Part shown: positions 7,747 through 29,094 of the stretch, one piece after another
Layout of the letters: every line of letters begins with the position of its first letter
Position numbering within the stretch: position 1 is the stretch's first letter
Source of the DNA: Streptococcaceae bacterium
GTDB taxonomy: Bacteria > Bacillota > Bacilli > Lactobacillales > Streptococcaceae
NCBI GenBank assembly: GCA_031285775.1
Contig: JAITVN010000075.1
Location: 1-34,312 of the forward strand
Direction: 5' to 3'
Length of the DNA stretch: 34,312 nucleotides
Program-made: the position numbers and the translations under genes
The notes under the pieces: model-generated
The model's input: only the letters and a program-made list of their open reading frames with translations
What the model was told of the DNA's origin: nothing
The model's database searches: none

Positions 7747-10029
7747 ATGGTACATTTTAATCACTTTTCGCTGGTTGAGAAAACGCTTGCTGAAAAGCTC
7801 GATGAGCTCAACAATCTAGGCTTTCAATTCGCTGGTTTAAATGAAAAAGAGATTCTAGAAGAATTCTTGAGGCGCACGCCAATCAATGAAACCGAGCTTC
7901 AAGCCACTTCTTCTTCGAACTTGATGGACTTTTTGACCAGTACAGAGGCAATGAACTGGAATGCTTTTTGGGCAATCGCCCTACAGCTGCAAGGCTTCGT
8001 TGCGAATTTCGAGTTTGAGATTGATAAAGCCAACGACTTTGCTCGTTCTGTTAATTTACCACGCATTGAAGGAGAATTGTCCACTGATAATCTGATTTCG
8101 GCCTTATATCTTTTGCTTTTATCTCGCGGAAAAGGTGGAATGACGCTCGTTGAAGCTTGGGTCAGTGAGGGCTTATTAGCTGTAGATAATCAGTATCACT
8201 TCTTTAATGACAAGGTACTGGCAACTTTTGATACTGCAGCTGTGAAAAGTGAAAAAGTCTGGGTCGAGACACCTGTAGACACGCAGAATCGTGGACAGTA
8301 TGACCTGGTCTGTGTGGAAATCTATCGACCGCTCTATGAAGGCGGCAAAGTTCCATCGGTCATGACTGCAAGCCCTTATCATGTAGGCATGAATGATGTT
8401 GCTTCCGACAAAGGCCTGCACAAAATGGAGACCGATTTGGCAGAAAAAACAGCTGGAAAGATTTCTACATATCCGCGTCTGCCAGAAGATCCTGCTTATG
8501 CAAAAACTCCTGCTGATGAACTTGTCAGTGAAGCTGAGCAGAGTTTTACGCACGGTTGGACCTATTCGCTCAATGATTACTTCTTGGCGCGCGGTTTCGC
8601 CTCAATCTATGTGGCAGGCGTTGGCACCAAAGACTCAGACGGCTTCCAGAGTTCTGGCGACTATCAGCAGATTTACTCGATGAAAGCGGTGATTGACTGG
8701 CTGAACGGTCGGGCGCGAGCTTTCACTTCACGTCGACGTGATAAGGAAATAAAGGCCGATTGGGCCAATGGCAAGGTTGCTATGACTGGTCAGTCATATC
8801 TAGGGACAATGTCCTACGGTGTTGCCACAACTGGCGTGGACGGGTTAGAAGTCATTCTCGCACAGGCAGGCATCTCCAGCTGGTACAATTATTATCGCGA
8901 AGGAGGGCTTGTGCGCTCGCCTGGCGGTTTTCCAGGAGAGGATTTAGATTCATTGGCAGAATTGACCTACTCTAGAAATATGACAGGTGCAGATTATTTG
9001 GCTGGAAACGAGAAATACCAGACACAACTGGCTGAAATGACCAAAGACTTGAACCGCACAACTGGTGACTACAATCAGTTTTGGGAGGATCGCAACTATC
9101 TGCCGAATGTAAAGAATGTCAAGGCGGATGTGCTGATTCTGCACGGTCTGCAGGATTTCAATGTGACGACGGATCAGGCGCTGAATTACTGGAATGCTCT
9201 GCCGGCTGGCGCTCACAAGCATGCTTTTTTGCATCGCGGGTCGCATCTGCCGATTCATAACTGGCAGTCGATCGATTTTACTGAGGTAATTAATACTTAC
9301 TTTACGGCAAAGTTGCTGGATCGTCCGCTGAATTTGGAGCTGCCGCCTGTTGTGCTGCAGGAGAACGGAAAGTACGAGAGCTGGACATCTGTTGATGCTT
9401 GGGGAAAAGACGAGAAAACTGAGCTGACCCTAGGTGACCACCATGTCAAGTTTGAGAATGCTTATGAAAATGCTGATTTCATCCGTTATGGACAAAATTT
9501 TCAGACTTTCAAGAGTGAGCTTTTTGAGGGGAAAATCACTGAAAATGCAGTCCTATTAGACTTGAGCTTACCTTTTGCAGTGATGATCAATGGGGCGCCG
9601 ATACTTGAAATCAAGCTGAAAATCAATGACAGCAAAGGCTTGATTTCTGCTCAGCTGCTGGACTTCGGCAATAAAAAGCGCCTTCCTGATACACCCGTCC
9701 CAGTTGAATCACTCGCACTTGACCGCGGACGACTTTTCAAGCAGGAAAATCTTGTAGAAATTCCGCTTCGCGAGAGCCAATACCAAGTCATCAGCAAAGG
9801 CTTTCTGAACCTGCAGAATCGTGAGAATCTTACGACGATCTGCCCCGTCACAGCGGGCGAATGGATGACTGTGCGGATGTCACTCCAGCCGACGATTTAC
9901 AGCTTGGAAGAGACAGATAATCTGCGGCTTTTGATTTACAGCAGCGATTTTGAACACACTGTTCGTGATAATCGTGATGTCACCTATGAGATTGACCTCT
10001 CCCAGTCAAAATTAATTCTACCAGATTAA
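7747..10029 (+). CDS. pepX: Xaa-Pro dipeptidyl-peptidase (X-prolyl dipeptidyl aminopeptidase; ORF 7642-10029, likely start 7747)
   Basis: MVHFNHFSLVEKTLAEKLDEL start; GKVAMTGQSYLGTMSYGVATTGVDGLE (serine nucleophile), GDYNQFWEDRNYL; AAAGGAG ribosome-binding site. Confidence 0.96.
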   Translation: MVHFNHFSLVEKTLAEKLDELNNLGFQFAGLNEKEILEEFLRRTPINETELQATSSSNLMDFLTSTEAMNWNAFWAIALQLQGFVANFEFEIDKANDFARSVNLPRIEGELSTDNLISALYLLLLSRGKGGMTLVEAWVSEGLLAVDNQYHFFNDKVLATFDTAAVKSEKVWVETPVDTQNRGQYDLVCVEIYRPLYEGGKVPSVMTASPYHVGMNDVASDKGLHKMETDLAEKTAGKISTYPRLPEDPAYAKTPADELVSEAEQSFTHGWTYSLNDYFLARGFASIYVAGVGTKDSDGFQSSGDYQQIYSMKAVIDWLNGRARAFTSRRRDKEIKADWANGKVAMTGQSYLGTMSYGVATTGVDGLEVILAQAGISSWYNYYREGGLVRSPGGFPGEDLDSLAELTYSRNMTGADYLAGNEKYQTQLAEMTKDLNRTTGDYNQFWEDRNYLPNVKNVKADVLILHGLQDFNVTTDQALNYWNALPAGAHKHAFLHRGSHLPIHNWQSIDFTEVINTYFTAKLLDRPLNLELPPVVLQENGKYESWTSVDAWGKDEKTELTLGDHHVKFENAYENADFIRYGQNFQTFKSELFEGKITENAVLLDLSLPFAVMINGAPILEIKLKINDSKGLISAQLLDFGNKKRLPDTPVPVESLALDRGRLFKQENLVEIPLRESQYQVISKGFLNLQNRENLTTICPVTAGEWMTVRMSLQPTIYSLEETDNLRLLIYSSDFEHTVRDNRDVTYEIDLSQSKLILPD

Positions 10030-25141: not shown

Positions 25142-26506
25142 CTATTTGAACACCAGAGCTAAAACCTCAGCAATGGTCTCAACCCCTATGACGTTCAGTC
25201 CCTTTGGAATATCAAGGTTATCCATCGAAGATTTAGGCACATAGGCTTTCTTGAAGCCAAGTTTGGCTGCCTCATTAATACGCTGTTCCATACGCACCAC
25301 GCGTCGGATTTCTCCCGTCAGCCCGATTTCACCAATGAAACACTCAGAAGGATTCGTCGGTTTCTCTTTATAGCTCGAAGCAATGGCCACAGCAATGGCC
25401 AAGTCAATCGCTGGTTCATCAATTTTCACACCGCCTGCAGATTTCAAGAAAGCATCCTGATTCTGCATCAAAAGTCCTGCACGTTTTTCAAGTACAGCTA
25501 ATATTAATCCAACACGATTATAATCAACACCAGAAACCGTCCGCTTTGCATTTCCAAACATTGTCGGTGTTGTCAACGCCTGAATTTCCACTAATATCGG
25601 ACGTGTACCTTCAAGTGCTGCTACAATTGCTGAACCTGTTGCCCCCTCCAAACGCTCACTCAGAAAAACCTCAGACGGATTAAGCACCTCACGCAGCCCG
25701 CTGGTCTGCATTTCAAAAATTCCAATTTCATTGGTTGATCCAAATCGATTTTTAACTGCCCGCAAAATCCTAAAAGAATTCTGCCGCTCGCCTTCAAAGT
25801 ACAAAACAGTGTCCACCATATGCTCAAGCGTACGCGGGCCAGCCAGAGTTCCCTCTTTGGTAACATGACCAACAATAAAAATTGCAATATTGTTCATTTT
25901 AGCAATCTGCATCAGCTCATTTGTCACCTGGCGTACCTGAGAAACACTTCCTTGAGTCGACTCAATCTCTGGCGACATAATCGTCTGGATAGAATCGATA
26001 ATCAGAAAATCCGGTTTGAGACGCTCAATTTCCTGACGTACAGCCGACATATTTGTTTCTGCATAGACATAAAAATCTGCATTCTCGTCCTCTGTCAAAC
26101 GCTCTGCCCGCAATTTAATCTGCTGGGCAGACTCCTCACCGCTGACGTAGAGCACTTCTCCACGAGTTGCTAATTGCGCTGAAACCTGCAATAAAAGCGT
26201 TGACTTACCAATTCCAGGATCTCCGCCAATCAAAATCAAAGACCCAGGTACAACACCTCCACCGAGCACATGGTTGAACTCCTCCATGTCAGTTAGGACA
26301 CGGGGAACATCGTGCCTGTCAACCTCCCCCAGCCTGATCGGAGATGACTTTTCCCCAGACAGTGTCTTGCGTGCGTTGGGTACCTCTTTAATTTCACGTT
26401 CTTCCACAAAAGAAGCCCATTCACCACAATTTGGACAGCGGCCAAGCTCCTTAGATGACTTATAACCGCAATTCTGACAAACAAACATTGATTTATATTT
26501 AGACAA
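25142..26506 (-). CDS. radA: DNA repair protein RadA
   Basis: [21 protein letters not shown] zinc finger, [14 protein letters not shown] Walker [12 protein letters not shown] motif. Confidence 0.96.
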
Positions 26507-26669
26507 GTTTTCTCCTCAAAATAGTCGAAGCAATTCAGAAACTTTACTTCTTAAATAATAATACGCAAAAGAACGGCAAATGTCACGAAAAAATACCAAA
26601 AATTTGACAGAAAGAAATAATTTGATAAAATAAACAAGTACATTTCTTATCGCGCCAATATCTGTACAC

Positions 26670-27138
26670 TCGCTAGCGCTCGAAGCACTGCTTCGAGGTA
26701 ACGGATGAAGATTTGCGAAGCAAATCTACATATCGCTGCTCACCGAATGAGTGACAGTGATATATCAGAATTCAGAATAAACTCCTAATAGAGTAGTTAA
26801 CTAATAATAAGCCGTTGTAGCTCAGTCGCTAGAGCTTGAAGCACTGCTTCGAGGTAACGGATGAAGATTTGCGAAGCAAATCCTCCAATCGCTGCTCACC
26901 GAATGAGTGACAGTGTTATATCAGAATTCAGAATAAACTCCTAATAGAGTAGTTAACTAATAATAAGCCGTTGTAGCTGCAGTCGCTAGAGCTCGAAGCA
27001 CTGCTTCGAGGTAACGGATGAAGATTTGCGAAGCAAATCTACATATCGCTGCTCACCGAATGAGTGACAGTGATATATCAGAATCCAGAATAAACTCCTA
27101 ATAGAGTAGTTAACTAATAATAAGCCGTTGTAGCTCAG
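26670..27138 (+). repeat. Three tandem ~156-bp units (hairpin cluster + A/T-rich leader + 5' tRNA-Thr fragment at the internal junctions)
   Basis: TCGCTAG anchor recurs at 26670, 26826 and 26983, with the tRNA equivalent (TCGGTAG) at 27139; near-identical sequence between. Confidence 0.9.
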
Positions 27139-27196
27139 TCGGTAGAGCAGCACCATGGTAAGGTGAAGGTCGTGTGTTCGATTCACATCAATGGCA
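27124..27196 (+). tRNA. tRNA-Thr(GGT)
   Basis: GCCGTTG acceptor / CAATGGC; D-arm GCTC-AGTCGGTA-GAGC; anticodon loop ATGGTAA (GGT); T-loop TTCGATT. Confidence 0.88.
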
Positions 27197-27327: not shown

Positions 27328-27356
27328 AAAACCTGTCAAAACTGACAGGTTTTTTC
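27328..27356 (-). terminator. ezrA terminator
   Basis: AAAACCTGTCAAAACTGACAGGTTTTTT. Confidence 0.75.
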
Positions 27357-29094
27357 ACAAACGATATTCAGGAACAGTCTTCGTATTTTCATAAACATTG
27401 ACGATACGCTCTGTAGCACCTGGATCAACTTCTTCAATAGCTGCCGAAATCGTATTGAATGAAGCGGTATAGTCTCGGTCACGCTCGAATAAAGTCAGTG
27501 AACGCTCCATCGCGCTGGCTACATTCGCATTGGTCAATTTGAAACGATTGGCATACTGCATGAGCTGCTCCGCTAGCGCTGCATTATCCACTAATTTGTC
27601 AGTCTCCGTTTTCAAGCGCTCAAGCTGTTCTTTGGCCAAGTCCGCCATATGCTTGATCGTTTCCATATTGATACGAACTTTATCCATCTCTTTGAAAAGT
27701 TTTTCCACTTGGCTGCTGACAGTAAAGAACAAATCCAGATAGGCAGTCGGCAAGCCTGGAAGATTTCGCTTTTCAACAAAGCGTTTAATCATGCGAATAC
27801 GCGTGTCTAAGTCTTGAGCAGTTTCACGCGCCTTTTTCTCGTCTTGAGAGAGTGAAGTAATCTGCTCATTTATTTGCATCTGCTGTTCTTCGATTTCCTG
27901 CAGTGAAGCAATAACCGCATTTACACGACGATTAATCATAGAATAAGGCTGCTCTTGCACTTGAACATCTTTCAGCTTCAAGATATTATCAGCTTCAATT
28001 TCCAGATCATCTAAGCGCAGCTGTGCTGAACGTACTGATGCCTTTTCATTGTCAGATAAAATATAAGCTTGCAGCGCATGATCAATTTCAAGCAGAAGAC
28101 TGCGGTTGTTTTCACGGGTATGCTCAATATAAGGCTTGAGGATAGGGGCATTCTTTTCAAAATTCTTGCGTCCGCTGTATTCTTTTTCAAAAATATCGTA
28201 CAAGCCGTTAATCTGCTGTTTCGTTTCCTGAAGCAGGTTTTCCGCGCGATCAAGCTCAAAACGCTCTAGATTTTCTTTGGTTTCCTTTAAGCGGTTCCTG
28301 ACATTTTTGATAGATTGTTCAAGATTGAACGTTTCTGGGAACTTATAGTTCTTTTGGGTGAAATCTTTGTAGTTCTCTTCCAGCTCAGAAAGTTGCTTCT
28401 CATAATCATCATCAACTAAGTGGATAATTTCAGGAATACGCTCTGTAATGTTATTCAAAGCTATTGTATGCTCTTCAGCGATTTCTAAAATCTCAGCGGC
28501 CTCAACAGGATCTCCCTTCGAATTCAACTCTACAAACTGATTAAACTCAGTTTCGATATTGCTCAGCGACTCCTCAATCATGCCAATAGTCGAGCCGTAA
28601 TGTTCCGCATTGTCCGCAATATGATTACGTAATTTATCATACATGTCAAGCGCATCTTGAATTTTCGTGGAATTATAGCGCTCCTGTTCCATCAGTTCAT
28701 TCAAGCCGCTGCGAATCGCCTCCGCATCGGTCTCCATCATCTTTATCAGCGATTCTGCTTCCAGCGCAGCCTCTTTTGCCTTCCCCCAACGAAAACTATC
28801 ATTTAGCTGCTCAGCTTCAAAAATACTGTTTTCCAGCTCGGCAAAAGAATTCTGCGACAAGTCAACCCATTTTTGGTGCCATTCTCTATATACTTTCTGC
28901 GACTGACCTACTAAATGCATCGACTTTACCTTATCAAACTCATCCTGGACAGGCAAATCAAAAAGCTCTTCCTTGCGTTCTTCTAGTGCAATGATGAAGC
29001 CCTCTGTCTGACGGCGACGGATCATCGAATAAACATAGAATGCGACAATGAGAACAAAGATAATGACTAAAACAATGATAATAGTGGTTGACAT
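27355..29094 (-). CDS. ezrA: Septation ring formation regulator EzrA
   Basis: 579-aa; single N-terminal TM then long coiled coil, typical EzrA composition (RRQTEGFIIALEERKEELFDLPVQDEFDKVKSMHLVGQSQ). Confidence 0.93.
   Translation of the reverse strand: MSTTIIIVLVIIFVLIVAFYVYSMIRRRQTEGFIIALEERKEELFDLPVQDEFDKVKSMHLVGQSQKVYREWHQKWVDLSQNSFAELENSIFEAEQLNDSFRWGKAKEAALEAESLIKMMETDAEAIRSGLNELMEQERYNSTKIQDALDMYDKLRNHIADNAEHYGSTIGMIEESLSNIETEFNQFVELNSKGDPVEAAEILEIAEEHTIALNNITERIPEIIHLVDDDYEKQLSELEENYKDFTQKNYKFPETFNLEQSIKNVRNRLKETKENLERFELDRAENLLQETKQQINGLYDIFEKEYSGRKNFEKNAPILKPYIEHTRENNRSLLLEIDHALQAYILSDNEKASVRSAQLRLDDLEIEADNILKLKDVQVQEQPYSMINRRVNAVIASLQEIEEQQMQINEQITSLSQDEKKARETAQDLDTRIRMIKRFVEKRNLPGLPTAYLDLFFTVSSQVEKLFKEMDKVRINMETIKHMADLAKEQLERLKTETDKLVDNAALAEQLMQYANRFKLTNANVASAMERSLTLFERDRDYTASFNTISAAIEEVDPGATERIVNVYENTKTVPEYRL

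Follow-up and report, generated by a model that had tools for sequence, protein, structure and literature searches.

An array of three tandem repeat units lies directly upstream of the tRNA-Thr(GGU) gene in the window (the whole 34,312-nucleotide stretch analysed here, a contig from a member of the Streptococcaceae). We consider it likely that this array is a BOX-type mobile element which inserted in the D-loop of the tRNA gene and was later amplified to three copies. The initial annotation had described a triple repeat of about 156 bp at this place, and this is borne out: the one array that Tandem Repeats Finder detects in the window spans 26670-27148 (period 156, 3.1 copies, 95% matches), and a repeat search of the window returns three 169-nt copies with spacings of 156 and 157. 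The 156/157-bp units occupy 26670-27138, between a promoter and the tRNA-Thr(GGU) gene, which is the sole tRNA gene of the window according to ARAGORN and Rfam. At the gathering score, Rfam detects this tRNA alone in the window and no family matching the array. Units 1 and 3 are identical at 154 of 156 positions, and unit 2 differs from either of them in 8 of 157 alignment columns. The units differ from one another at several positions and so cannot be simple copies made by the assembly. With 119 contigs and about 90% completeness, the draft genome is of the kind in which an artefact could arise, but the same layout is found in many other assemblies, some with few large contigs, and we regard an assembly artefact as highly improbable.

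The element reads, from 5' to 3', tRNA 5' copy, core, antisense arm, leader and intact tRNA (Table 1). It is thus placed between a truncated 5' copy of the tRNA and a complete leader plus tRNA, and the gene stays intact. There is one core per unit; what is repeated is the whole unit. The truncated copies that had been noted before units 2 and 3 are present as described, including TCGCTA in place of TCGGTA and the extra G in the second of them. A possible 5' arm also stands before unit 1, but it is too diverged to be called a tRNA copy. Compensatory pairing of this diverged arm with the antisense arm of unit 1, which seemed possible by eye, was dropped, as 57 of 500 shuffles were equally good. 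Three helices per unit, as proposed earlier, are generally present, but in unit 2 the first hairpin contains a U-G pair and the third helix is damaged.

Table 1. Features of the array and its surroundings, in window coordinates.
Feature	Position	Strand	Basis or remark
Promoter TTGACA-16-TAAAAT, TG before second hexamer	26604-26631	+	11/12 match; precedes units 1, 2 and 3
Degenerate 5' arm before unit 1, at original tRNA start position	26652-26678	+	sequence
Repeat unit 1, comprising core, arm, leader and the following truncated tRNA 5' copy	26670-26825	+	repeat finding, unit alignment
Unit 1 boxB-like core	26679-26727	+	P2 26679-26697, joining GGTAACGGATGA, P3 26709-26727; covariation
Unit 1 antisense arm	26735-26756	+	complements tRNA-Thr from about position 6 to position 28
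Truncated tRNA-Thr 5' copy preceding unit 2	26811-26834	+	sequence
Repeat unit 2	26826-26982	+	repeat finding, unit alignment
Unit 2 boxB-like core	26835-26883	+	P2 26835-26853, P3 about 26866-26882
Unit 2 antisense arm	26891-26912	+	arm pairing, unit alignment
Truncated tRNA-Thr 5' copy, one extra G, preceding unit 3	26967-26991	+	sequence
Repeat unit 3, running into intact tRNA	26983-27138	+	repeat finding, unit alignment
Unit 3 boxB-like core	26992-27040	+	P2 26992-27010, P3 27022-27040
Unit 3 antisense arm	27048-27069	+	arm pairing, unit alignment
Intact tRNA-Thr(GGU), rebuilt 3' of array	27124-27196	+	ARAGORN, Rfam

The array is flanked by radA (25142-26506, minus strand) and an ezrA-like gene (27355-29094, minus strand), both named by content. 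The spacing of the promoter resembles that of the uninterrupted tRNA-Thr in a congener (G003, locus L015). Between promoter and tRNA, no terminator-like site was found and promoter-like matches were weak (9/12 at best); for these reasons, tRNA-Thr(GGU) is probably transcribed through the array. With the promoter reading through, the tRNA would be produced from a long leader, which RNase P would remove.

The core consists of two hairpins, P2 and P3, joined by a GGTnnnGGAT segment. In an alignment of 18 sequences, 99.6% of the cells in the core hairpins are standard pairs (shuffles: 81.9%), and 11 of the 15 core pairs are changed on both sides, compared with 5.6 in shuffles. P2 remains 100% paired over 32 elements from several genera, with 6 of its 8 pairs changed on both sides. 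A covariance model, R1, was built from the genus of the window only. It matches the cores of units 1, 2 and 3 at 26678-26729 (E 1.8e-13, this sequence being itself part of the model), 26834-26885 (E 8.6e-13) and 26991-27042 (E 1.8e-13), respectively. Outside this genus, it matches about 65 genomes of one large genus of the family, which by content is Streptococcus: the matches read boxA-boxB-boxC, the published BOXA2R primer sequence (PMC7291552) adjoins the core in 7 loci, and a named S. hohhotensis locus is matched (E 1e-12). Matches in Streptococcus BOX copies reach an E value of 1e-13. The boxB module has been described as a 45-bp tandem unit (PMC3102655), and tandem 45-bp core copies are present at one of the loci (L177). 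The core and the boxB module of BOX elements in Streptococcus are homologous. In an Rfam search with three sister loci at a lax cut-off, the core matched no family. Neither boxA nor boxC is present in the window or in the other tRNA-linked copies, which have tRNA-derived flanks there. Conversely, the 5' duplication is absent from all Streptococcus BOX copies that were fetched; scores were at shuffle level except for the tandem boxB copy itself. Dozens of dispersed core copies per genome, outside tRNA genes, are seen in G004, G437 and G454 and in genus g4. A mimicry of the acceptor stem (GCCGTT with AACGG after the first hairpin) was visible by eye at Thr-GGU and Asn and lacking at Val and Lys, and was judged to be due to chance.

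The hairpin unit also occurs elsewhere in the same genome, which the initial annotation had suggested to look for: there are 11 matches to unit 1, eight of them outside the array. In a survey of the stretches around tRNA genes and core matches, the core was found before nine tRNA species or isoacceptors (Thr-GGU, Thr-UGU, Thr-CGU, Lys-CUU, Lys-UUU, Asn, Phe, Val and Pro). tRNA-Thr(UGU) has the core at two genes, and tRNA-Asn and tRNA-Val carry two tandem units each. Wherever the contig allows this to be seen, the core is preceded by a truncated 5' copy of that same tRNA, which ends in the D-loop, after GG or after GAG. In the congener G003, the element is located at Thr(CGU), Thr(UGU) and Asn; the tRNA-Thr(GGU) genes of G003 and G002 are without element, but these tRNA alleles differ from that of the window. 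Among Lactococcus species and their relatives, the core precedes tRNA-Thr, -Pro, -Lys, -Val, -Phe, -Asn and -Arg genes. L. garvieae, L. petauri and L. ileimucosae carry the element at the same radA/tRNA-Thr(GGU) site as the window, and the tRNA-linked layout also occurs in L. laudensis, L. termiticola, Lactococcus sp. dk101, MAG Lab288P3bin9 and further relatives. A clear 5' duplication is seen at 35 loci, and 31 of these are at tRNA genes; arrays of tandem units are frequent (Val, Asn, Thr, Pro, Lys). As to whether the core spreads within genomes or is inherited at its site, the comparison of core identities gives a mixed signal (0.685 within the same genome, 0.688 at the same tRNA, 0.603 otherwise). 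This spread across Lactococcus, the kinship with BOX and the antisense nature of the third helix described below are beyond what was seen in the initial annotation.

The layout is also seen at the start of a few protein genes. At a low-molecular-weight phosphatase gene of L. termiticola (L257), the arm match ranks first of 35, and the differences between the two gene starts all appear synonymous by eye. The start of pfs shows the layout, again by eye, in L. termiticola (L264) and in the genome of the window (L200, contig C31). At a thiI-like gene of G004 (L141) the layout is present, but the arm match is not significant (rank 8 and 12 of 35). A further match (L160) is a second partial core and was not used as support.

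The third helix proposed earlier is real, but it is part of an arm that lies 3' of P3 and is complementary to the D-arm of the intact tRNA. Against the 5' 40 nt of tRNA-Thr, the arm of the window beats 200 of 200 shuffles, and tRNA-Thr ranks first among 15 tRNAs. The complementarity extends 3-7 nt beyond the cut point of the upstream truncated copy, and this copy can thus not be the only partner of the arm. Over all elements, arms fit their own targets better than permuted ones in summed arm-target score (730 versus 529 +/- 22), in pairing energy (-29.0 versus -22.3 +/- 0.9 kcal/mol) and in matched bases past the truncation point (3.05 of 5 versus 1.96 +/- 0.18), although these permutation tests take in related sequences and the figures overstate independence. 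The arm also tracks differences between species in the tRNA itself (TACCT/TACTT in tRNA-Pro, CAGCA/CAACA in tRNA-Thr). L. laudensis has two tRNA-Thr genes with identical cores, each with an arm that fits its own tRNA (CAAC or CAGC). Elements of the GG type have a more generic arm, CTACCAAxTG, which fits the D-loop of many tRNAs.

That the element was inserted into tRNA genes, one of the two origins put forward in the initial annotation, gains support from its presence before many tRNA genes and above all from a relative in which the event can be reconstructed. At a tRNA-Lys gene next to an rnz-like gene, G453 carries a 69-bp insert between two exact 32-bp repeats, and the same locus in G450, G444 and G455 has neither the insert nor a second 32-bp copy. 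When the insert and one repeat are removed, G453 aligns with these three empty sites; the promoter region of the locus aligns in G450 and G444. Target duplication upon insertion is, on this comparison, demonstrated for the tRNA-Lys of a relative and not for the window's own locus. No terminal inverted repeats are present on the G453 insert, which begins with CTTGAAGC and ends in GAGGGAT. The same tRNA-Lys locus has a tandem array in G443. Upstream of tRNA-Lys in G452 (L324), there is a decayed remnant, in which the second hairpin, the arm and the leader are kept and the first hairpin and the truncated copy are gone. A duplication starting from the transcription start, as would be expected for an RNA copy, is not supported, since at the tRNA-Lys of G453 it begins well downstream of the expected start. 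An origin from a phage or plasmid was likewise dropped, as the similarity matches fell on the tRNA part of the query, and the exact core pattern was not found in viral contigs.

The second proposed origin, tandem amplification together with the tRNA leader, also agrees with the data. The three units of the window have their arm and 50-nt leader in common, and at the start of copies 2 and 3 there is a hybrid tRNA/element end (TCGCTAGAGC). Due to these shared parts and hybrid starts, unequal crossing-over fits the array better than three separate insertions. Insertion in tRNA-Thr(GGU) would have left the first 5' part of the gene after the promoter, where it is now degenerate, and the tRNA would have been rebuilt downstream; units 2 and 3 would then have arisen when the truncated copy and the tRNA recombined by unequal crossing-over. 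A scheme without transposition is conceivable, in which template switching between inverted repeats keeps correcting the arm to the tRNA and the unit is a by-product of tandem duplication. The arm and the intact tRNA are indeed inverted repeats at a distance of 20-60 nt, which is a favourable setting, and the frequent tandem arrays would be in line with it. However, it leaves unexplained why the same covarying core is found at unrelated tRNAs and in ordinary BOX copies, and how a clean insert with corresponding empty sites came about; we thus consider this scheme very unlikely. Independently of the window, a tandem array of tRNA 5' copies has formed upstream of the tRNA-Thr(GGU) gene of G004 (L341), where the insert seems to have been reduced to one hairpin.

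Insertion followed by amplification being the preferred reading, the match between arm and target has to be accounted for. Exact duplications of 22-36 bp together with matching arms are found at five loci (L238, L242, L249, L258 and L268). Because copies with still-identical duplications already have matching arms, we infer that the arm was matched to its target at the time of insertion, and slow selection is not needed to produce the match. The arm may select the target through base pairs that span the insertion point; alternatively, its sequence may be copied from the target as the element inserts. In the most far-reaching version, which we regard as rather doubtful, insertion is guided by pairing, with the 3' arm choosing or copying the target, and the inserted element afterwards acts as a self-contained switch on the tRNA supply, in which pairing of the arm to the nascent tRNA is opposed by the upstream copy. 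If true, this would be a pairing-guided insertion system without a protein gene of its own, and a new kind of tRNA leader control.

A related possibility is that the element, whatever its origin, is now a cis-regulatory tRNA leader. In the nascent transcript, the arm would pair either with the truncated copy, leaving the tRNA free to fold, or with the intact tRNA, which would be blocked, and the two-hairpin core would bias this choice, e.g. through a bound ligand or protein. For 31 of 32 elements, the intact tRNA is predicted to be the stronger pairing partner of the arm and the truncated copy the weaker one (mean energy -28.1 versus -17.2 kcal/mol), but the 42-nt tRNA stretch used in the comparison exceeds the truncated copy in length, and the energies are biased by this. 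The pair probability of the cloverleaf drops from 0.84 for the tRNA alone to 0.30 in the leader, in an equilibrium folding, which takes no account of the order of transcription or of processing. The cloverleaf is not recovered when the arm is scrambled, since the truncated copy also contends for the 3' half of the tRNA. Changes in the arm lean to transitions that keep the pair (23 versus 8), the element at tRNA-Thr has been kept in L. garvieae and L. petauri, where changes in P2 are compensatory, and the tracking of tRNA-Pro and tRNA-Thr differences between species points in the same direction. On the other hand, the distribution is patchy, the G452 copy is in decay, and the arms of young insertions are already matched. 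Many diverged duplications and the occurrence at the same tRNAs across species indicate that some copies are old and inherited, which would fit selection for function as well. Altogether, we think a present regulatory role of this kind unlikely.

The element invites comparison with several known systems. BOX elements are composed of boxA, boxB and boxC and are transcribed in S. pneumoniae (Croucher et al. 2011, PMC3049150; PMC3102655); they have been interpreted as dormant parasitic repeats with an unproven link to ISSpn2 (PMC3049150). The tRNA-linked elements have the same two-hairpin core, corresponding to the 45-bp boxB module, and are likewise short, non-coding, intergenic and modular. In place of boxA and boxC, however, they have the 5' part of the target tRNA and an antisense copy; they are located at the start of tRNA genes with a target duplication of 22-36 bp, whereas BOX is dispersed; and whole units are repeated, whereas boxB is repeated head to tail within one BOX element. 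In the open-access literature, we found no link of BOX to tRNA genes and no description of tRNA-linked Lactococcus repeats or of truncated-tRNA repeats. To our knowledge, the mechanism by which BOX elements move has been an open question since their discovery. Clean target duplications and empty sites at defined tRNA positions make this movement testable, and the target-matched arm suggests pairing-guided insertion or templated copying, neither of which has been described for BOX.

RtT repeats, in the tyrT operon of E. coli, are tandem repeats that each contain the 3' end of a tRNA and are located downstream of it. Like the units of the present array, they are repeated in tandem next to a tRNA gene, have a similar length and each carry a piece of that tRNA; the array differs in carrying the 5' end, in its upstream position, in its BOX-like core and in its occurrence at many tRNAs. 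With MITEs, the element shares small size, non-autonomy, strong folding and a target duplication with a known empty site (tRNA-Lys of G453). As the 69-bp insert has no terminal inverted repeats, it is not an ordinary MITE, and the duplication is much longer and the placement in the D-loop region of the tRNA strict. Integrative elements that target tRNA genes also insert there and restore the gene, but they typically carry an integrase and usually use the 3' part of the tRNA. In the present case, it is the 5' part that is restored, the element is non-coding and about 70-110 bp long, and a single core is used at many tRNAs. For Lactococcus, our observations imply that many tRNAs would be produced with long leaders which can base-pair with the very tRNA; such self-pairing leaders could affect the tRNA supply in industrially used bacteria.

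Two further observations concern other folded repeats. In G000 (contig C69, about 8930-9110, L201), three tandem units of about 60 bp with a boxB-like second hairpin are found shortly before a coding start. In G003, truncated 5' copies lie upstream of tRNA-Phe (L134), tRNA-Ile (L137) and tRNA-Ser (L123), and after them comes a different folded insert that is devoid of the boxB core. The inserts at tRNA-Phe and tRNA-Ile have CATCAGC...GATGGAATGGACAAAC in common, and the inserts at the three tRNAs suggest a second class of elements with the same habit.
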